Source: Coleofasciculaceae cyanobacterium
GTDB taxonomy: Bacteria > Cyanobacteriota > Cyanobacteriia > Cyanobacteriales > Xenococcaceae
Direction of reading: 5' to 3'
DNA: 57,737 bases
Assembly: GCA_036703275.1 (NCBI GenBank)
Contig: DATNPK010000094.1
Coordinates: 1 to 57,737, forward strand
The notes under the pieces: model-generated
What the model saw: only the letters and a program-made list of their open reading frames with translations
Databases searched by the model: none
Told to the model about the DNA's origin: nothing
Position numbers and translations under genes: made by a program
Shown: positions 43,684 to 57,737 of the stretch, piece after piece
How positions within the stretch are numbered: the stretch's first letter is position 1
Layout: each line of letters begins with the position of its first letter

Positions 43684-45201
43684 ATGATTGGACACAGCAG
43701 TAATGCTAGTGAATTATGGGAATTCGAGGACTGGAAGAAATTCCAAAAGACGACTTTCCGCCTTCAAAAGAGAATATATTCAGCAGTTAGAAACGGAGAC
43801 AAGCGTAAAGCAAAGTCATTACAAAGACTCTTACTAAAGTCGGAATGTGCGAGGATGATAGCTATTCGCCAGGTAACACAACTCAACGCAGGTAAGAAGA
43901 CTGCTGGAATTGATGGCAAAACTGCGCTCACGCATGAAGAGAGATATGAACTCGAATCAGTATTGAACGAAGATAGTCACAACTGGAAACACAATAAACT
44001 TCGTGAAATACCAATCCCCAAAAAGGACGGTACAAAACGAATACTAAAAGTTCCCACTATCGCAGATAGAGCATGGCAATGCCTTGTGAAATTAGCTTTA
44101 GAACCAGCACATGAAGCAACATTCCATGAGCGAAGCTACGGGTTTAGAACAGGTCGAGGAGCGCATGACGCTCAGAAAATTCTATTCTTAAATCTCAACA
44201 GTAGAGCTAACGGAAAAGATAAAAGAGTTATTGAACTCGATATCGAAAAATGCTTCGACAGGATTAACCATACCGCTATTTTAGACAAGGTAATAGCACC
44301 TCAGTTTATTAAACAGGGATTATTTAAATGTCTAAAAGCTGGAATTAATGCCGAGTTCCCCGAACAAGGTACACCCCAGGGTGGAGTAGTTAGTCCATTA
44401 CTTGCAAATATCGCTCTAAACGGAATTGAGGAAATACACCCATCTGTACGTTATGCAGACGATATGGTAATAATCCTCAAACCCAAAGACGATGCAGAAC
44501 AAATACTTGAAAGAATTAGCCAATTCTTAGCAGATAGAGGACTAAAAGTAAGCGAGAAAAAGACCAAGCTAACCGCTACGGCAGATGGATTTGATTTCTT
44601 AGGATGGCATTTTAAAGTGCAGTCCAACGGAAAGTTTCGGTGCGTTCCCAGTGAAGGCAATTATCAGAAATTCCGTGAGAAGGTTAAGGAAATTGTCAAC
44701 AATTCTAACTATGGTGCAGAGGTGAAAGCTAGTAAACTAGCACCTATCGTTCGAGGATGGAGATTTTATCATAAGTACTGCAAGATGGATGGCTCTAGAT
44801 TTAGTCTATGGCACATAAATCACAGAACTTTTACAGTCTTCAACAAAGAAAAAAAACAAGACCGTTATAAAGCTACGAAATTAGTCGATATGGCGTTCCC
44901 AAATGTTTCTTACTCCGAGAACAGATTCGTAAATGTCAAAGGCAATAAATCTCCATATGATGGTGATTTAGCGTACTGGTCTAAAAGGAACAGTGTCCTA
45001 TACGACGGATATACAGCCAATGCATTAAGACGACAGAACCATTCATGTGAACATTGTAAACTCAAATTGACTTCAGAACAGAGAGTACATCTACACCATG
45101 TAGACGGAAATCACTCCAATTGGAATTATAGCAATTTGAGAGCAATACATGAGTCATGTCATGACTACATACATATGAAGCACAAGGGAATCAAGCCCTA
45201 A
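43684..45201 (+). CDS. ltrA: Group II intron reverse transcriptase/maturase with HNH endonuclease
   Basis: A 505-residue intron-encoded protein. An RT0-RT7 core (about 60-330) has GIDGKTALTHEERYELE, IPIPKKDGTKR, LDIEKCFDRINH, GTPQGGVVSPLLANIALNGI and the catalytic YADD. Maturase domain X is at about 345-400 (LAPIVRGWRFYHKYCKMDG). A C-terminal HNH nuclease (CEHCKLKL ... HLHHVDGNHSNWNYSNLRAIHESCHDYIH) allows retrohoming by target-primed reverse transcription. All key residues are present and the frame is open, so the intron may be active. The protein ends ten bases before domain V. Confidence 0.95.
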   Translation: MIGHSSNASELWEFEDWKKFQKTTFRLQKRIYSAVRNGDKRKAKSLQRLLLKSECARMIAIRQVTQLNAGKKTAGIDGKTALTHEERYELESVLNEDSHNWKHNKLREIPIPKKDGTKRILKVPTIADRAWQCLVKLALEPAHEATFHERSYGFRTGRGAHDAQKILFLNLNSRANGKDKRVIELDIEKCFDRINHTAILDKVIAPQFIKQGLFKCLKAGINAEFPEQGTPQGGVVSPLLANIALNGIEEIHPSVRYADDMVIILKPKDDAEQILERISQFLADRGLKVSEKKTKLTATADGFDFLGWHFKVQSNGKFRCVPSEGNYQKFREKVKEIVNNSNYGAEVKASKLAPIVRGWRFYHKYCKMDGSRFSLWHINHRTFTVFNKEKKQDRYKATKLVDMAFPNVSYSENRFVNVKGNKSPYDGDLAYWSKRNSVLYDGYTANALRRQNHSCEHCKLKLTSEQRVHLHHVDGNHSNWNYSNLRAIHESCHDYIHMKHKGIKP

Positions 45202-45210
45202 TTAAGTCGG

Positions 45211-45244
45211 GAGCTGGGTGCGGTGAAAGTCGCACGCCCAGATC
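45211..45244 (+). ncRNA. Group II intron domain V
   Basis: Exactly 34 nt folding as a two-stem hairpin with a GAAA-type loop. The AGC triad near the 5' side pairs with the closing strand. This is the ribozyme's catalytic domain, and it marks the intron orientation as plus strand. Confidence 0.9.
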
Positions 45245-45304
45245 TAACAGAGAGGCGCGGTAGGTAATACTACCCGTCGACTCTACCAAAGCCGCCGCCC
45301 AAGT

Positions 45305-47926: not shown

Positions 47927-48130
47927 ATGTCACAACAAACTCGTTTGGGAAATATTCTCAGGCCGCTTAACTCTGAATATGGTAAAGTTGCTCCTGGCTG
48001 GGGAACAACCGTGCTAATGGGAGTATTCATGGCTTTATTTCTGGTTTTCCTCTTAATTATTTTGCAGCTTTATAATTCTTCTTTAATCCTAGAAGGAATC
48101 GATGTGGATTGGAGAACTTTAAGTCGCTAG
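47927..48130 (+). CDS. psbH: Photosystem II 10 kDa phosphoprotein PsbH
   Basis: A 67-residue thylakoid protein: [20 protein letters not shown], then [20 protein letters not shown], one membrane helix at about 28-48, and a lumenal tail [15 protein letters not shown]. It stabilises CP47 and quinone-site function in photosystem II. The divergent psbN gene confirms the locus. Confidence 0.97.
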
Positions 48131-48623: not shown

Positions 48624-49933
48624 TTATAATAAGTTACGGGTTTTTAATTGCAGATAGCGATCGACTAACTCTTCACTAAGGCGATCGCATGGTGCATCTA
48701 AGACTAATACACCTCGCTGTCTTAATTGAGCAAAAGCTAGCTGACGTTGGGCTAATAAGTATCTTTAGTATTATCTGTGGGAGAATGGGCAATCTGCTCG
48801 ACTATTGGATCGTTTAGAGTAACACAAAAAGGTAAATAGCGCGGGGTTAGACGAGTCATTGCGCCGAGTAATTCACTAGAAGCCGTAACATCAACTAGAT
48901 CGGTAATTACAACCACTAAAGCGCGTCGAGTCTGCTGGGTAATTACCTTAGTTACGGCTTTAAGATAATCAGGTTCTAATAATACAGGTTGAATTGATGT
49001 CAGGCGATCGACTAGTTTTGATAAATGATGGTTACCTCTTTCTGGAGGTATCCAAGTAGTAATATCGCGATCGAATACAGCAACTCCAACTTTATCGCCA
49101 CGACTTAACCCCGCCAAAGCTAGAGATAGAGTAGCATTTAAACCCCAGTCAAATCGTTTCAAGCCTCCAACCTTAGCCGTCATCAAGCGCCCGCGATCTA
49201 ATAAGATAAATAAAGTTTGCTCTTGTTCTGGTTCTAATACTCTTACCACAGGGCGACTGGCAAAGCCACAGGGCGAACCAAGAACGCGCCGCGCCGTAGC
49301 TTTCTAATCAATCAGACGAATATCTTCTCCTGTGCGATATTCGCGTAATTCGGCAAATTCTGTACCTTTTCCGCGTCTTTTTGCCTGACGCATAGCACCA
49401 CTATTTTCAATAGTTAAACGGATTGAAAGTTCCCTTAAGGCAATTAAGTCAGGATAAACAGTTACTTTCTGTTTGGCTGGTATTGTCCAATTGCGCCAGG
49501 TTAAACCGAATTTACCCAACTGACGTACTTGAATATCTCCCCATTCATATTCTCCACGACTATTGGGGCGAATAGTATAGGTTTGCTTGCTAATGCTATT
49601 GCCAGCTAGGTTAACCTCTAAAGTGTTTTGGTTTGCCATAAATTCTGAAGGAAAAGCATCACGGATTAAGGCGATCGCCTTTTCTTTGCCAGATTTGATG
49701 TTTAATTCAATTAAATTATCTCTACCAACAGAAAGACGATCTATCTTCTCTCGTGTTACTTCAGCAGCATGGTTTTTAACCTCAGACGCATCCATAATTG
49801 TTGCAATCAATAAAGCAAAATTATAAATTCGTAAAAAATTCAGACTTATTTGGCGATTAGTCAAAACATCTAGCAGCGCAGCACTAATACCACCTATTGA
49901 TAGCAGTACATAACATCGTCGGGATGGAATCAT
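48624..49933 (-). pseudogene. DUF58 domain protein gene, decayed
   Basis: Begins MIPSRRCYVLLSIGGISAAL and shows the DUF58 core EFAELREYRTGEDIRLID. TAG then stands where a Trp codon is expected, followed by KATARR, an extra repeat-like VLGSPCGFAS, and RPVVRVLEPEQEQTLFILLD. It runs on through a vWA-like half to a stop after DNTKDTY. A frameshift is needed to recover LAQRQLAFAQLRQRGVLVLD ... YLQLKTRNLL ending at 48624. One nonsense change, one insertion and one frameshift show loss of function. Normal partners are MoxR ATPases, found just upstream and also broken. Confidence 0.85.
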
Positions 49934-50017
49934 GTTTTATCTAAGATAAAAATTTGTTTAACAAACGGCTGAAGCACGATAAATTGCGATTTAAACTGCG
50001 CCATTATTGCGATCGCT

Positions 50018-50274
50018 AATACTCCGAAACTAATTTAACCCAGCCTTTAGCCTTTGAGGATCTTTGATCTAGTTTAGTAGTAGCCTGTTCGACTGTTGGT
50101 GCTAACCACAAATAGACATATTCGATAAAGCCTCGTAACTCATGACTGTTTAAACTATGGAAAGGATTGATTATCTACCTGCTTAAAACCAGCTTGAACC
50201 AGCAATGTTCCTAGAGATTGTCGTTGAATTAGTCTTATTTGTTCCTGATTAGAGTAACCATGAATATAATCCAT
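50018..50274 (-). pseudogene. SAM-dependent methyltransferase remnant
   Basis: From ATG 50274 it reads MDYIHGYSNQEQIRLIQRQS LGTLLVQAGFKQVDN, then stops. The tail resumes in another frame as SLNSHELRGFIEYVYLWLAP TVEQATTKLDQRSSKAKGWV. The beginning matches class I methyltransferases whose N-terminus is YIHGYS-EQ-RL, and the end is a typical C-terminal part. The SAM-binding middle (about 150 residues) has been deleted. Confidence 0.65.
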
Positions 50275-50297
50275 ATTTTTGCAGGATAAAAAATAAA

Positions 50298-51245
50298 TTA
50301 CCGCGGCACAGATACTTGTTTCAATACAAATGCTATAAGTTCATCAAGCTGTACATTGTCTAGCTGCGCTTCGGGTTTGAGAATTAAACGGTGGCGCAGA
50401 AGTGGCGCAGCAATTTCTTTTACGTCATCAGGGATAACGTAGTTTCTTCCCGACAGGCAAGCGTTAGCTTTACTAGCATTCAACCAAGCCACAGCCGATC
50501 TCGGTGATGCACCTAAAGCTAAATCTGGATGTTGACGGGTGCGTTCAACTAAATCAAGTAAATAGTCTAATATATTATCTTCCACCTGAATATCTTGTAC
50601 CTGTTGCCTTAAAGTCAAGATATCTTCTACAGTTGCGATCGGGTCAATTAAGTCTAAATCAAGTTTTTTTGCCTTAAATCCACTTTGTGCATTGACTAAC
50701 ATCTGTTTCTCTGCCTCTTTGACAGGATAGTTGACCAGTAGCTAAAACATAAAGCGATCTAGCTGTGCTTCGGGTAGAGGATACGTTCCCTCAAATTCCC
50801 AAGAGTTTTGCGTAGCAATTACCCAAAATAGCGACGGTAAAAGCATTGTTTCCCCATCCAAGGTAATCTGCTGTTCTTCCATAGCTTCAAGTAAAGCTGC
50901 TTGAGTTTTGGGAGGAGTGCGGTTAATTTCATCAGCTAGTAAGATTTCAGTAAAAATAGGTCCTTTTTTGAGGATAAAATTACGGCTATTAAGGTCAAAA
51001 ATATTTGTCCCCAAAATATCTGAAGGGAGAATGTCAGGAGTTAATTGAACACGACGAAAATCCGCAACAATTAGTTTAGACAATACCTTGACTAATAAAG
51101 TTTTACCTGTTCCTGGCACACCTTCAATAATGACATGACCACCACTTAGTAAAGCAACCAGTAATTGTTTCACTAAATCTGATTGACCAATGACGATCTC
51201 GTCTATCTTTTGACTGAGATTATTTAGCAAAGAATTATTTGACAT
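50298..51245 (-). pseudogene. MoxR-type AAA ATPase with one in-frame stop
   Basis: MSNNSLLNNLSQKIDEIVIG leads into Walker A GVPGTGKT (42-49), Walker B ILLADEINRTPPKTQAALLE and sensor ATQNSWEFEGTYPLPEAQLD RFMF. A TAG (50742-50744) then stands at an expected Lys codon. The same frame continues without interruption as LLVNYPVKEAEKQ MLVNAQSGFKAKK to the normal C-terminus LKQVSVPR. MoxR ATPases act as chaperones with DUF58/vWA proteins. The neighbouring partner genes are also broken, so the whole cluster appears to be degenerating. A start at 51245 is preferred to one four codons upstream. Confidence 0.85.
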
Positions 51246-51469
51246 TAAACATTGCACTTAAAATTTAATTTTTGCTCTTGGAGATTTGATTACAGTAGTC
51301 GTTTTAACTCTTTGCTAGCTTGATGTAAAGCTGAAAACGCAATAGACTTATCTCGACAATCCTTGTCTCGATTAATTCAACGCATCGCTCGATTTAAAAT
51401 TTTAGGGGACAGATTATATTTTTGCTCAAATCAGCACTACAGCTTTTATACTTTCTGTGGCAAATAAGT

Positions 51470-51566: not shown

Positions 51567-51638
<72 letters not shown>

Positions 51639-51656
51639 TTCTTTTTTAAATACTAA

Positions 51657-51734
51657 TGTACATTAATGTGTGTGACAGGTGTTGTACATTAACTAATTAT
51701 TTGTCATCGGTAACAAATTATTAGTTAATGTACA
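51657..51734. mobile_element. Tn7/CAST-like transposon end remnant beside tRNA-Val
   Basis: Three TGTACA sequences lie at 51657, 51683 and 51729. The stretch 51683-51734 is an almost perfect palindrome (23-bp arms, one mismatch, eight-base centre) starting TGTACATTAAC and ending GTTAATGTACA. Its core ATTATTTGTCATCGG-TAACAAATTA resembles, from memory, the TnsB-binding end repeats of cyanobacterial type V-K CRISPR-associated transposons, which end in TGTACA and insert just downstream of tRNA genes. The right TGTACA abuts the truncated helicase. No transposase or Cas12k gene lies in the window. It is probably a collapsed or excised element. Confidence 0.55.
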
Positions 51735-51735
51735 A

Positions 51736-53652
51736 CCAATCAAAGCCTTGCTTAATAACCAGGCAGAAAGATTAAAAACCTACACCGAAATGGTAGGTTT
51801 ACGACGTTTTGTTTGGCATGGAGATATCAAAGCATCAGAGAAAAAAGCGTCGCTCAAAGAACCTGCCCATATTTTAATGACTACCCCTGAGTCATTAGAG
51901 GTAATGCTTTTGTCTTCCAAAGTTCCTCACGCGAAACTTTTCGCAGATTTACGAACAGTTATAGTAGATGAGATTCATGCTTTAGCAGGAAGCGATCGCG
52001 GTACTCATTTAATTTCTGTATTTGAAAGGTTATTTCGCTGTACCCAAAACGATGTGCAGCGTATTGGCTTAAGTGCAACAGTTGGCAATCCTCAAGATAT
52101 TTTGCAATGGCTACAGGGAACATCTCAACGACAAGGCTGCATTATAGATCCGCCTCACGTTCCCTCTAAAAAAGACCTCCGCATTTACTATCAAGAAACC
52201 ACAAGAGCGATCGCTCAACAAGCTAGTCAAATAGCTCAAGGTCAAAAAAGTCTTTTTTTCTGTCAAAGTCGCTCATTAGCCGAAAAAATTGCCGAGCAAA
52301 TGCAAGATAGAGATATAGACGTATTTGTACATCATAGTTCTGTATCAGCAGAAGAAAGAACCACTGCCGAAGAACGTTTTCATCGTGGTGGTAACACCAG
52401 TATTGTCTGCACTTCTACCTTAGAACTAGGAATTGATGTGGGCGACTTAGATTTAGTGCTACAAGCCAATGCTCCTACTACTGTTTCTTCATTTCTCCAG
52501 CGCTTGGGAAGAACAGGCAGAAGATCGGGTCAAAGAGCTAACACCACCTTTTTTTGTGAAGATACAGAAACAGTTCTCCAGGCGATCGCATTAGTCGAAT
52601 TAGCCAAAAAAGGCTGGGTTGAATCTGTATCAATAAACAATCGAGTTTGGTCGGTATTAGTTCATCAGATTTTAGCTCTCACACTTCAATTTGGCGCAAT
52701 TAGTGCAGACCAATGTTGGCAACAATTATCAGTCATTTCCGATTTCTCTGGCATTAGCCACGCTGAATTTGAACATTTAATCGCTCACATGGTTCGGGAA
52801 AACTTCTTATTTCTCTCACAAGGATTGCTTTCGATCGCAGATAAAACAGAAAAAACTTTTGGTCGCCGAAACTTCAGGGAAATTTATGCCGTTTTTAGTA
52901 GCCCTCAACTTTACAAAGTTGCCACCGAAACAGATTACGTTATCGGTTCATTAGAACAAAATTTTGTTGATAAGCTTGTTGAGGAAATGAGTTCTTTTCT
53001 TTTAAGCGGTAAAGCGTGGATAGTAAATTACATTAATCATCAAGATAGAACAGTAAAAGTAATACCCGCCCCTCGTGGCAAACAACCTACCTGGGGTGGT
53101 TTTATTCCTCAGCTACTTAGCTTTGAGGTGTGCCAACAGATCCAGGAATTGCTCGTAAAACGCGATCGCATTCCTTATATAGATGAAAAATCACAATTAT
53201 CCCTGAATGAATGGAGAAAAGAACTAAGTCCAGTTTTAGATTGTGCAGGAATTAACATTAGTATTGAAGGGGAACGAGTTCTCTGGTGGACTTTCGCTGG
53301 CGGACAAATCAATCACACTCTTAAGTATGGAATCCAGGTTCAAAAAGACTGGAAAATCGTCGCTGACAACTTTAAATTAAAAATTGAAGGTAGTGGACTT
53401 ACTCCTCAGACATTACAGCAAACAATTGTCTATTTGAGTACTAAAGATTTTTGGCAAGATGCTTCAACTAAATCATTCATCAAAGCTAACTTACCGAACT
53501 ATAGACTGAGCAAATTTCAATCTGCTTTGCCAGCCAACTATTCTTTAGAAATAGTTGAGAATTACTTGTTGGATATATTTAACACTATCAATTTTTTGGG
53601 TGAATTTTTAAACAGAACAAAAATAAAACAAGAAGCGTTTGGTGGAGATTGA
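51736..53652 (+). pseudogene. Lhr-like superfamily 2 helicase, 5'-truncated
   Basis: The coding sequence starts abruptly at motif Ia (PIKALLNNQAERLKTYTEMV GLRRFVWHGD), right next to the transposon-end remnant. Walker A and the Q motif (about 100-130 residues) are missing. Downstream everything is intact: DEIHAL (motif II), LSATVGN (III), TSTLELGIDVGDLD, QRLGRTGRR (VI), then a winged-helix and Lhr-type C-terminal region (WWTFAGGQINHTLKYGIQVQ). The first usable start is a TTG at 51748. It cannot hydrolyse ATP without the P-loop, so it is inactive as a helicase. Lhr-like helicases are common in defence islands. It is 58 bases upstream of the GTPase gene. Confidence 0.85.
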
Positions 53653-53710
53653 TAAGTTTTGCCATTTTGGGAACACTTAAATTAATGAAGCAATAAACAA
53701 ATTTTTTAAA

Positions 53711-55945
53711 ATGGTTCAAACGATTACTGATAATAATAAGCTTTCCAGATCTGTTCAGATTGAACAAATTATTAAAAAACGGCAGCCATTAGTCAATCAA
53801 ATAAAAGCAGTACAAGAAAACCTCAACTTTATATCCGACTCAGTAAATGAAATCAAAGATAAACGCGACTGTCTATTAAAACAGGTAGATGATGCGATAA
53901 TTATCGCCAAATTGGAGGATATTAGCTGTTTATCTATCATTGACAAAATTAGCTCTGAATTGAATGCTTTGGAAAAGCTAACGTCTCGTTTTTCACGCCG
54001 TACTTTAAACATTGGAGTTGTGGGTAGAGCAAGACAAGGTAAAAGCCGATTATTGCAAAGTTTAACTGGACTATCGAAAGCTGAAATTCCCGATGGAGAC
54101 GATCAACACTGTACGGGAGTTAGAAGTAATATTTATCATATTGCGGGAATAGAAACTTATGCTGAAGTTTATTTCCATTCAGAATATTCTTTTTTAAATG
54201 AAGTTATTACTCCTTATTACCAACAGCTAAACTTAGGAGATGTACCTAAATCTGTAGAGAAATTTGCTAATTCTCCATTGCCAGAATTAGACACAATCAA
54301 GGTAGCGTTAGACAAAGCCAAGTACGAGCATCTTAAAAAATATCATCAGCATATCGAGCGATACAACCACTTATTTCAGCAAAATACTCATCTACGAATC
54401 ACCAAAGATCAAATTAGAGAGTATGTAGCTCAAGACAATGTACAGGGAGACCGTATTTACTATACATATCTGGCTGTAAAAAAAGTAGATATTTATTGCA
54501 CCTTTCCTAATCAAGATATCGGACAGATTGCATTAGTAGATATGCCAGGTCTAGGGGATACGGGAATTGGCGATGCCGAACGGATGATTAAGACTCTGGG
54601 ACAAGATATAGATGCAGTCTTGTTTGTTCGTATGCCCAAATCGATGGGAGATGTTTGGTCAGAAGAAGATGTAAGTCTTTATGATTTAGCAAATAGCACC
54701 TTGACTGACTTACCAATTCAAGAATGGTCTTTTATGGTTCTCAATCATGTTGTTGCCATTGATAATTATAAAAACTGTATTAGTCTGAAAAATGATATTG
54801 CTAATCAGCACATTGATGTTCAAGCCGCTATTCTTTGTGACTGCGCTAATCAAACAGAAGCACAGACAGCAGTACTAGATCGAGTAATTGATTATTTAAC
54901 TCAAAGAATTGATGTTTTAGATCACAAATATGCCTCAGCTTGCCAGTATAGACTGCTAGGACTTCAAAAGGAAATCGATCGAGAATTAGAAAAAGCTAAT
55001 ACTGCCTTTGGACAGAAAACAACTTGTGATTGGTCTCGATATTCTGTCCGCTTATTTCATAAGCTCTGGAATGAACTGAGAGAAAACCTTGAAGGGCTTA
55101 CCAGATCTATGATTCAATACAGAGATGCTGAAGATGAGAGTTTTGCTTCAGCAGTAAACCAAGCCGTTAAACATTGTCGCGATCATCCTGGTGTTCCCAG
55201 TGTCGAGCAAATTCTCAAGAAACGAGATCGCTATGGTTCATTTGAAAGTGCCTATTCAGAATGTCAACATGAAGTAAGAACTAGATTATCTAAACGTTTT
55301 CTAAACCTTAATATTGCTCTACGAGAATCTTTAGAAAAATCAAAGTCCCAAGTAGCTACCGTATTAGCAGAATATGCAAAGCTAAAATACATCGCATCAG
55401 GGGAAGGTAGCGTTCTTTTACTCAACATGGAAAGAAAAATACCTGAAGATTTGGCAGATCTTAAATTGGGTTTTTCAACCTTAGCTAGCTTCGATTTGCA
55501 ATATCATGGTTTAATTCAGCATCGAATTAGAAAACATTTAGATGTTTTGACTCCCGACAGAACCAAATATAAGTTTAATGATTTATTTAGTAATTTTTTG
55601 GGTCAGCCTAATAGCAACGAAGAAAAGGCTAAGAAAATATATCAAAATCTTCGTCAGGCACAAATTGAAGCCGTAAATAATTGTGAAAAAGAGCTTAAAA
55701 ATATACTGGTTGAACCTAGTCAAGCAGGTTTTGCAATTATCGAAGAATTCGTAGATCGTGTTGTTAGAGCTGAAGGGATAAGAGAAGAATGGGAGATTTT
55801 TTTACAGGAGTTTGCTTCTCAAATTTGGCAAGAACAGTTTGCATCAGTAAATTCTAGTTCTCTTCTCAAAGAAGAATGGATGTACGTAATTAAGCAAGTA
55901 CAGCAAAAGAACACAATAGAAAGTTTTAAATTTGCTCATAAGTGA
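53711..55945 (+). CDS. Dynamin-like GTPase
   Basis: A 744-residue large GTPase. An N-terminal helical stretch (about 15-95), the P-loop GRARQGKS (105-112), a switch region around CTGVRSN and G3 motif DMPGLGDTG (277-285) define the domain. The G4 motif is weak (LNHVVAID instead of TKxD). A long helical stalk-like region fills about 390-744 (KEIDRELEKANTAF ... RVVRAEGIREEWEIFLQEFA). No membrane helix is predicted, so membrane contact would be peripheral. Bacterial dynamins remodel membranes, and some protect against phage. Its neighbours are a truncated helicase and, convergently, a membrane-active candidate plus a truncated second GTPase. Confidence 0.85.
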   Translation: MVQTITDNNKLSRSVQIEQIIKKRQPLVNQIKAVQENLNFISDSVNEIKDKRDCLLKQVDDAIIIAKLEDISCLSIIDKISSELNALEKLTSRFSRRTLNIGVVGRARQGKSRLLQSLTGLSKAEIPDGDDQHCTGVRSNIYHIAGIETYAEVYFHSEYSFLNEVITPYYQQLNLGDVPKSVEKFANSPLPELDTIKVALDKAKYEHLKKYHQHIERYNHLFQQNTHLRITKDQIREYVAQDNVQGDRIYYTYLAVKKVDIYCTFPNQDIGQIALVDMPGLGDTGIGDAERMIKTLGQDIDAVLFVRMPKSMGDVWSEEDVSLYDLANSTLTDLPIQEWSFMVLNHVVAIDNYKNCISLKNDIANQHIDVQAAILCDCANQTEAQTAVLDRVIDYLTQRIDVLDHKYASACQYRLLGLQKEIDRELEKANTAFGQKTTCDWSRYSVRLFHKLWNELRENLEGLTRSMIQYRDAEDESFASAVNQAVKHCRDHPGVPSVEQILKKRDRYGSFESAYSECQHEVRTRLSKRFLNLNIALRESLEKSKSQVATVLAEYAKLKYIASGEGSVLLLNMERKIPEDLADLKLGFSTLASFDLQYHGLIQHRIRKHLDVLTPDRTKYKFNDLFSNFLGQPNSNEEKAKKIYQNLRQAQIEAVNNCEKELKNILVEPSQAGFAIIEEFVDRVVRAEGIREEWEIFLQEFASQIWQEQFASVNSSSLLKEEWMYVIKQVQQKNTIESFKFAHK

Positions 55946-56027
55946 GCAAGATGATCGACGCTAGTTTTTTATGCTTGATTGGTTAGTTAAGAAAAACGTC
56001 AAACTAATTTAAATTTACAGTCTCTTT

Positions 56028-56051
56028 GAAAGCGGGCGATCGCTCGCTTTC
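56028..56051. terminator. Palindromic terminator between convergent genes
   Basis: GAAAGCGGGCGATCGCTCGC followed by TTTC is a nearly perfect 24-base palindrome centred on HIP1. AT-rich runs lie on both sides, between the GTPase gene and the opposing 417-residue gene. Confidence 0.6.
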
Positions 56052-56100
56052 ATTTTAAAATTTTAAAAGTGCGGAAGAAGAGTCTGTCTTTATTTCTTGC

Positions 56101-57354
56101 TCAACAAGGTAATGTGTACCAACTAGCCTCTTCTTGTTTACTAGGTAATAGCTCAAGACTACTTTTAACTCCTGTTTTTTGGCATAGGAAAGCAAAATCT
56201 TGTAAGGTTTCTAATCTAGCTGATAGCTCGCTAAAAGTATCTAGATATTCTGCTACTGCTACTTGCTGATAAATCCAACTGCGATCGTATTGTGAAGTAT
56301 AAGACATCTGAAATTCAACTGCAATGTCATCCTGCTTTTCTTGTTTTTTCTCTAGAGATAAATTGCGATCGCCTGAAGAAATATTGATGATTCTATTTAC
56401 TCTTTCTTGACTAATATGTTGCTTGAATACTGGTGCTGTAAATCGATAGGTTGTGTTTAGTTCAGGACGCTCTCGTTTTAATAAACTATTTGCCCATTGT
56501 TCGGCATTTTGTTTAAATTTGGGAACTTCTAAACTGAGTAATTCTTGTGCCTCATCAAACATCCCAACTTCTAATAATAAATGAGCCTCTGTTGCGGTAG
56601 CTACCGCCCATCCTTGAGTAGCTATATCAGCTAATAACATCTTTTGGGGTTCTAATTCAGGGGTAATTTGTAATGCTTGGTCACACACGATCATCCGTAC
56701 TTTAGAAGCAACTTTTAAAGCGGACTGAATAGAAGTATTGGGGAAGCGATCTTTTGCTATTAATTCGGCACGTAGTTCGGCTATTTCTTTAATTAGAATT
56801 GTCCGATAAAGTTGATTAATCGCATCCGCGAGATGAATTTGCCCTTGTCGATTTTCTTGCACTAATAAATGTAGGTATGCTAATTGTCCAGATAAGACAT
56901 CAAAACGTTCGTTAATATTTTTAAATCCTGCTTCCATTGACTGCTGCATTTTACCCAAGGAAGTTTGGATTTTATTGAGTTTGTAACCCATATAAGCAAA
57001 TCCAGCGACGCTAATTCCTACATTGAGTACGCTAGCTCCTGCTGCAATTTGAGATAATCCTAATATGGGATTTAGCATTTGTTGAACTTGATTCAGTTGG
57101 CTACTAACTTTATTCAACTTGTGAATAGTAATACCATGACCAGCAATATCTGAAGTAATTTTAGCTGCACCCAACAATGGATTGGCAGCAAAAGTCATTA
57201 AATTACTTGTTAGTGCAGGAGATTCTACTAAATGACGTACAATTTGACCCGTGGCTGTTTCTCTAATCACACCACCATATCGTGTCAAAGTTCCATTTAA
57301 TAAACCTTGAATTATAGCTGGATCTTTAATTAAAAAAGTTGGATTAATTATCAT
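56101..57354 (-). CDS. Putative membrane-active protein paired with dynamin-like genes
   Basis: A 417-residue protein of unrecognised family. Residues 95-124 form a Gly/Ala-rich hydrophobic stretch (NPILGLSQIAAGASVLNVGI SVAGFAYMGY). It is flanked on both sides by amphipathic or coiled-coil helices (HKLNKVSSQLNQVQQML before, LNKIQTSLGKMQQSMEAGFK after), a layout seen in membrane-inserting effectors. The C-terminal 230 residues are helical and polar, with LLEVGMFDEAQELLSLEVPK. There is no signal peptide. It lies 95 bases downstream of a GTPase stub on the same strand, suggesting a former two-gene unit of GTPase plus membrane partner. Function inferred only from context. Confidence 0.7.
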   Translation of the reverse strand: MIINPTFLIKDPAIIQGLLNGTLTRYGGVIRETATGQIVRHLVESPALTSNLMTFAANPLLGAAKITSDIAGHGITIHKLNKVSSQLNQVQQMLNPILGLSQIAAGASVLNVGISVAGFAYMGYKLNKIQTSLGKMQQSMEAGFKNINERFDVLSGQLAYLHLLVQENRQGQIHLADAINQLYRTILIKEIAELRAELIAKDRFPNTSIQSALKVASKVRMIVCDQALQITPELEPQKMLLADIATQGWAVATATEAHLLLEVGMFDEAQELLSLEVPKFKQNAEQWANSLLKRERPELNTTYRFTAPVFKQHISQERVNRIINISSGDRNLSLEKKQEKQDDIAVEFQMSYTSQYDRSWIYQQVAVAEYLDTFSELSARLETLQDFAFLCQKTGVKSSLELLPSKQEEASWYTLPC

Positions 57355-57449
57355 CAGTATTACCTCAAACTAGCGACTGTAAAACTCAGTATTTTCATAA
57401 GCTTTACACGATAATCTGGGAGAAACTGTAAATTGAGGCGATCGCTTTC

Positions 57450-57662
57450 CTAATTCGATCCAATAGTCGCAATAGTAAAATTAGGATTAGTTAACCTAGC
57501 TACTGACTCTTCATAAGCCTGTCGAAACTCTAATAAAGAATCTTGAATATTCGGACTATCTAAAATATCAGCATGATTTTGAGCTAAGTCAGCGATAGCA
57601 TTACCTAATTGTTTCAAGCGCTCGCGAACTTGCTCAAAAATACCGTTAATTTCTGTTGTCAT
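57450..57662 (-). pseudogene. N-terminal stub of a second dynamin-like GTPase
   Basis: A 70-residue frame, MTTEINGIFEQVRERLKQLG ... ESVARLTNPNFTIATIGSN then stop. Its end is the first strand and first residues of a P-loop (usual continuation G-x-x-SSGKST). The rest of the GTPase is absent: the downstream gene begins 95 bases later. The break occurs next to a HIP1-like GCGATCGC. A deletion from the P-loop to the gene end would explain it. No other dynamin part is found on this strand. Confidence 0.7.
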
Positions 57663-57737
57663 GTATTTTATTTATGGTGCGAGAATTAAGCACAGCCTTA
57701 CACAAAGGCTATATTTATATTCTTCCCAAACAACTAG

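Follow-up and report, generated by a model that had tools for sequence, protein, structure and literature searches.

The window analysed here, a 57,737-nucleotide stretch of DNA from a Coleofasciculaceae cyanobacterium, raises the question of how a short palindrome bounded by TGTACA came to lie between a tRNA-Val(tac) gene and a helicase gene that lacks its beginning. We interpret this 52-bp object (Table 1) as a scar, consisting of two fused ends of a type V-K CRISPR-associated transposon (CAST) that inserted under guidance at the tRNA gene and later collapsed, and we place the probability of this reading at roughly 0.7. The identity of the scar is well supported and the mechanism moderately so, while the order of events is what we infer. 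TGTACA starts at 51657, 51683 and 51729, as listed in a first-pass annotation of the sequence, which had also described a near-perfect 52-bp palindrome. This palindrome was confirmed, with arms of 24 nt each (51681-51704 and 51713-51736) that are 96% complementary around an 8-nt centre. When the 52-bp core is compared with its reverse complement, 46 of the 52 positions agree, and the palindrome is the sole inverted repeat (minimum 12 nt) reported between 51400 and 52100.

Table 1. Positions of the scar and neighbouring features in the window.
Feature	Position	Strand	Basis or remark
tRNA-Val(tac), attachment-site gene	51567..51638	+	ARAGORN; Rfam 77.6 bits
GTT PAM (51618-51620) and protospacer CAAATCCAGTATCGCCC	51618..51637	+	Matches anchor spacers of LE-bearing loci in G023 and G005
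First TGTACA	51657..51662	.	Candidate tip of an older end; no LE homologue begins here
Scar, two CAST termini fused head to head	51683..51734	.	Inverted repeat, homologues, pattern scans
V-K CAST left end (LE), first 38 bp	51683..51720	+	Identity to ends in G041, G024 and G017
Inverted tip of a second CAST end (LE or RE)	51721..51734	-	Initial bases as in LE and RE; outer base adjoins helicase homology
BrxHI-like helicase gene without its first 77-78 codons	51735..53652	+	Homology to intact relatives; PADLOC
744-aa ORF of the island	53711..55945	+	Sub-threshold GTPase match only
417-aa gene (56101-57354) and surroundings, bounding the island on the right	56093..57459	-	Comparison with G007

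The left end and its placement beside tRNA-Val(tac)

The identification of the left part of the scar as the canonical left end (LE) of a type V-K CAST is well supported. All 41 bases from 51680 to 51720 are identical to the LE region in G041, a genome from another family, and the best matches outside the window's genome comprise 41/41 (G041), 40/40 (G024) and 38/38 (G017) identical bases, which bears out the resemblance to V-K ends that the first-pass annotation had noted. The first 38 bp match the LEs of V-K elements, beginning with TGTACA and including V-K terminal units; the later units are missing. At a cutoff of E 0.05, the scar query found matches in 71 of 150 related genomes, a set that includes the window's own. 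We fetched 29 other LE loci; for 23 of them a tRNA ends no more than 100 bp upstream (at 6-73 bp), and a 24th (L040) has a group I intron immediately upstream.

On reading these loci, we observed that 28 of the 29 diverge from the window near 51720: their LEs go on into individual sequence, most often NTGTC in form, where the window reverses into TTAGTTAATGTACA. A locus in G019 (L052/L076, G019:C12:23289-23338) turns back as the window does; it is near-palindromic, with a 50-bp match in both orientations and a decayed or mutated right terminus, and it adjoins a cas12k fragment. It is probably another scar, and was left out of the 13-object counts given below.

The window's genome encodes a Cas12k gene, tnsC, tniQ and a stop-bearing tnsB, found only at two other loci, C84 and C76. 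The genome-wide search suggested by the first-pass annotation therefore recovered CAST genes, but none of the four lies at the scar. The two best matches to the LE elsewhere in this genome are both beside tRNA genes, one at C84:34667, 10 bp after tRNA-Phe, and the other on C69 (TGTACA at 347), 23 bp after tRNA-Asn. The C84 end is part of a CAST with Cas12k (E 4.9e-253), an adjoining MerR-type regulator and an anchor spacer matching tRNA-Phe. At C76 (L027:10801-14112), a tnsB with an in-frame TGA, tnsC and tniQ stand beside a CAST end that abuts V-K-type CRISPR repeats, with no cas12k within the 20-kb stretch examined. A second Tn7-like set at C71 (L029) comprises a TnsB-like protein of 792 aa, a TnsC-like protein and two TniQ-domain proteins (301 and 657 aa).

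The tRNA gene ends at 51638, and the first and second TGTACA follow 18 and 44 bases on. These distances had been given correctly in the first-pass annotation; the LE itself starts at the second site, 51683, and not at 51657. A V-K LE is also found at this tRNA-Val(tac) in two relatives, G023 and G005, and in both the anchor spacer CAAATCCAGTATCGCCC faces a GTT PAM inside the tRNA. The LE adjoins cas12k in G023, and the G005 contig stops too early to show any. From the PAM at 51618 to the LE at 51683 the window measures 65 nt, compared with 61-67 for five CAST ends and with a published range of 46-82, with one exception, in section 6 of PMC9938897. Since the PAM and protospacer are shared with the G023 and G005 anchors and the spacing is 65 nt, the sequence argues for a V-K CAST that was placed by a guide RNA at tRNA-Val(tac). 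No convincing anchor spacer for tRNA-Val, of the kind that the first-pass annotation had suggested looking for, is present in 51640-57737; the best 18-mer, at 56322, has 3 mismatches, lies far from the LE and matches a different part of the tRNA.

The scar thus resembles type V-K CASTs (ShCAST/Tn7747, AnCAST) in its LE sequence, its position past the 3' end of a tRNA and its PAM-to-LE distance, and the relatives of its end adjoin cas12k and anchor spacers. It differs from them in size, at 52 bp rather than kilobases, and its locus has no cas12k, tns genes, array, anchor or target duplication. The gap between tRNA and LE also contains, at 51657-51679, the sequences TGTACATTAA and TGTGACAGG, the latter being the initial 9 nt of an apparent other transposon end in G002 (L176), about 30 bp past the same tRNA. 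Both are possibly tips of older elements.

The right edge, the truncated helicase and the island

Alignment of the window with three helicase genes starts at 51735 for G020 and G022 and at 51736 for G002, just after TGTACA, in agreement with the earlier remark that the next base enters a helicase gene. Because homology to two intact relatives begins directly past TGTACA, at 51735, the right edge of the scar is an exact transposon terminus as well. The intact helicase of G020 has 705 codons, of which 77-78, including the GGKT motif, precede the junction point. The window's helicase, scored as BrxHI by PADLOC, therefore lacks its ATP-binding motif and is probably inactive.

Right ends (RE) found beside tnsB are like LEs over their first 23 bp, with variation, and differ beyond this point (example inner sequences are ATCGGTAACAAATTA for an LE and GTCTTAACAAAATAT for an RE). 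The window keeps LE-type sequence through 51720 and then passes into an end tip, and about 12-15 bp of a second end suffice for the right arm, a stretch that LE and RE have in common. We infer that this tip is an RE, which may or may not belong to the same element; the 12-15 bp fit an LE or an RE equally. The head-to-head fusion proposed by the first-pass annotation thus holds, while its left-plus-right composition is one of two possible pairings. Searches for a partner RE in the window's genome returned no RE-like end near 55945-56100, no copy of TGTACAGGTGT with its context and no matches (0) to the pattern AMTGTACAGGTGT, which represents a partner RE carrying the LE flank.

The flanks of the 52-bp scar, GGTGT and ACCAA, share 0 of 5 bases, so there is no target duplication, and the locus has no RE with the 5-bp duplication of a V-K CAST. 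A duplication of ACTAA/ACCAA had been suggested with the TGTACA at 51657 as the left terminus; this was rejected, as LE homologues begin at 51683. We also dropped the absence of a duplication as proof of an adjacent deletion: the argument is weak because none of seven readable LE/RE pairs from apparently whole elements has a matching duplication (flanks compared by eye, with an eighth pair, G060, left out for an unreadable RE and the G120 ends assigned by position only). In G039 (L185-L188), two CAST copies lie in inverted orientation about 520 kb apart, and the RE flank of one agrees with the LE flank of the other at 5/5 bases, as after an inversion.

In G007, the region of the 417-aa gene (87% identical to window 56093-57459) lies only about 104 bp past tRNA-Val(tac), so that 51639-56092 in the window, with the flank, the scar, the cut helicase and the 744-aa ORF, is an island in that gap. 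PADLOC matches residues 10-141 of the 417-aa protein (56101-57354, minus strand) weakly to JukB (E 2.9e-11). Elsewhere in G007 is a half-decayed CAST (L063:2430-7412), 5 kb long, whose two ends resemble each other, one of them beside tRNA-Phe, with cas12k fragments only between them.

In G002, the helicase is 7.3 kb past the same tRNA, and the interval contains Tn7-like remnants, a fragment of brxD and a TrwB-like gene. The break in this helicase (L101:14940) falls within 0-6 nt of the window's; there the gene runs into brxD, with 5 nt of overlap at the junction, and no CAST end is present. Either the cut predates the divergence of the two species, G002 having lost the CAST end, or two breaks coincide. 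G002 was considered as the ancestral arrangement, a candidacy weakened by its own brxD-helicase deletion.

Recurrence of fused-end scars in cyanobacteria

Among 386 genomes of the phylum, the pattern TGTACAKTRACN{8,37}GTYAMTGTACA matched 3, one of which is the window's own, and because the same pattern written backwards matched none, the scar pattern occurs more often than by chance. A looser pattern, TGTACAKTNAN{5,35}TNAMTGTACA, was found in 9 of 388 genomes of the order, with 3 of 388 for its backward control. In GTDB contigs the first pattern matched 11 stretches, 6 of them cyanobacterial; the five others (L150-L153, L155), like a single match in viral contigs (L201), are unlike CAST ends on reading and were rejected. 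Plasmids yielded no scar, and one record, a Crinalium plasmid, has an LE-like stretch (41 bp of the query).

Together the scans gave 13 distinct short cyanobacterial TGTACA...TGTACA objects, three GTDB records having been merged with the objects of G661, G654 and G028. We judge 11 of the 13 to be fused CAST ends. The two set aside, which are still counted among the 13, are L087 (G041, 27 bp), unlike CAST ends, and the doubtful L089 (G601, 32 bp, 18/32 self-complementary). Five of the 13 stand 8-44 bp downstream of the 3' end of a tRNA: those of the window (tRNA-Val, 44 bp), G436 (tRNA-Leu, 35 bp), G579 (tRNA-Leu, 27 bp), Nostoc sp. JL34 (G654; tRNA-Val, 8 bp) and Phormidium tenue FACHB-1052 (tRNA-His, 8 bp). 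Under an assumed 0.00044 per locus, the chance of this is about 2e-14. In Nostoc sp. T09 (G661), a tRNA gene interrupted by a group I intron, which Rfam recognises, lies some 35 bp from the scar on reading.

Three of the 13 abut a cut V-K-type CRISPR repeat, in Nostoc sp. LEGE 06077 (recognised by Rfam CRISPR-DR15) and in G242 and C76 of the window's genome (both by reading). G242 retains a 680-bp remnant with LE, anchor and array; the scar occupies its RE position, and the 5-bp flank ACAAG is found on both sides (5/5). The repeats are cut at different nucleotides, with 15 nt kept in G242 and 25 nt in LEGE 06077, and the two scars may therefore be independent. By eye, the flank of the N. indistinguendum scar resembles that of the G082 LE. 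No CAST link was found for the G028 object.

The window's scar is therefore one of a small recurrent class of fused-end V-K CAST remnants. The first-pass annotation's idea of a collapsed element, the scar of a lost CAST, gains support from the recurrence of the same kind of object at CAST sites elsewhere. The G654 scar is asymmetric, and because its TTAAC and GTGAC tips differ, two different ends were fused at least there. On reading, scars of 51-52 bp run through one end as far as its second unit and then into the tip of another, and those of 31 bp combine 23 bp from the start of one end with the final 8-11 bp of another. Our searches of the open-access literature on CAST remnants or mechanism showed no description of such scars.

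Origin and meaning of the scar

The course we consider most likely begins with the RNA-guided insertion of a V-K CAST, at a distance of 65 nt from the GTT PAM that belongs to the anchor protospacer in tRNA-Val(tac). TnsB acting without TnsA would then have joined an element end to nearby DNA, and the DNA in between would have been lost along with the N-terminus of the helicase. A deletion at short repeats common to the terminal units may afterwards have removed the interior of the element. The product would be the first 38-40 bp of the LE fused to the terminal 12-14 bp of a second end, and the outermost base of this tip adjoins internal sequence of the BrxHI-like helicase gene. Strand transfer by a TnsA-less transposase fits the locus because there is no duplication and the helicase joint is exact, and a microhomology deletion between the two ends would fit because the fusion points, by reading, are in short repeats shared by the terminal units. 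More broadly, we take these objects to reflect a recurrent collapse of V-K elements into fused ends, with strand transfer into nearby DNA as the probable preceding step. An exact terminus joined to new DNA without duplication is expected of a TnsA-less transposase (PMC8188705, PMC11406308), and the former paper reports more than 85% cointegrates for ShCAST in E. coli. The break in the G002 helicase, at the same place and without a CAST end, is not explained by this model and counts against it, and it has lowered our confidence in the adjacent-deletion step.

The same short repeats at the fusion points would also suit a CAST that decayed by repair or slippage alone, followed by a deletion that happened to end at the transposon edge, and G002 offers an example of a microhomology deletion, with its 5-nt overlap at the same helicase position. 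An exact junction between TGTACA and the helicase, with homology from the next base in two intact relatives, would rarely arise by chance, and we consider this course unlikely. We regard as improbable a quasi-palindrome correction, in which a template switch during replication copies the left arm backwards at the LE dyad and no second end takes part. The centres of the 51-52 bp scars fall, by reading, at a natural dyad between the first and second LE units, and several scars are perfect or nearly perfect palindromes. However, the window retains ACAAATTATT, like the G001 LE, where a copied arm would be ACAAATAATT; the helicase homology meets the right edge exactly at TGTACA; and two different tips are joined in G654. 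A functional palindrome unrelated to transposition, such as an operator for the CAST repressor CvkR, is very improbable: CvkR binds the short palindrome AnnACATnATGTnnT (PMC9938897), but this motif with its single-base spacing is absent from the scar by reading, the homologues are transposon ends at many different tRNAs, and the right edge of the scar cuts coding sequence.

The fused-end reading invites comparison with better known remnants. A solo LTR is the small terminal remnant left once the interior of an element is lost between its repeats. The scar is likewise a terminal remnant after interior loss; unlike a solo LTR, scars have inverted ends, total 25-52 bp, lack a matching duplication and would have arisen through microhomology rather than long homology. 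MITEs and Tn3-derived miniature elements, like the scar, have a pair of inverted ends from a larger transposon and next to no interior. MITEs are recognised by several copies with target duplications, whereas the full-length 52-bp form occurs once in the window's genome, with no duplication and no sign of movement. In replicative intramolecular transposition (Mu, Tn3, IS6), an adjacent deletion joins the exact terminus of an element to new DNA without duplication. The scar has the same kind of junction, but here the element itself has collapsed too, and the deletion is part of our reconstruction.

Fused-end scars at native attachment sites would record what happens there, and they supply products, junctions and sites open to search and experiment. 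Gene-based CAST surveys would miss the former insertion sites that these scars mark, and the scars hint at how CRISPR-guided transposons break down in nature. It is a distant prospect that scars are retained as immunity marks, with a terminal TnsB unit by the tRNA blocking fresh V-K CAST insertion; if so, a vanished CAST would still protect its attachment site.

Elsewhere in the window, a 505-aa ORF for a group II intron reverse transcriptase precedes a group II intron match in Rfam (43684-45286, plus strand). At 48752-51257 on the minus strand, a MoxR-like AAA domain and its lid domain are split between ORFs and another ORF has only a partial DUF58 match; this MoxR/DUF58 cluster may be frameshifted. 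Positions 47968-48029 (minus strand) match the Rfam plastid psbN 5'UTR family at 57.8 bits.
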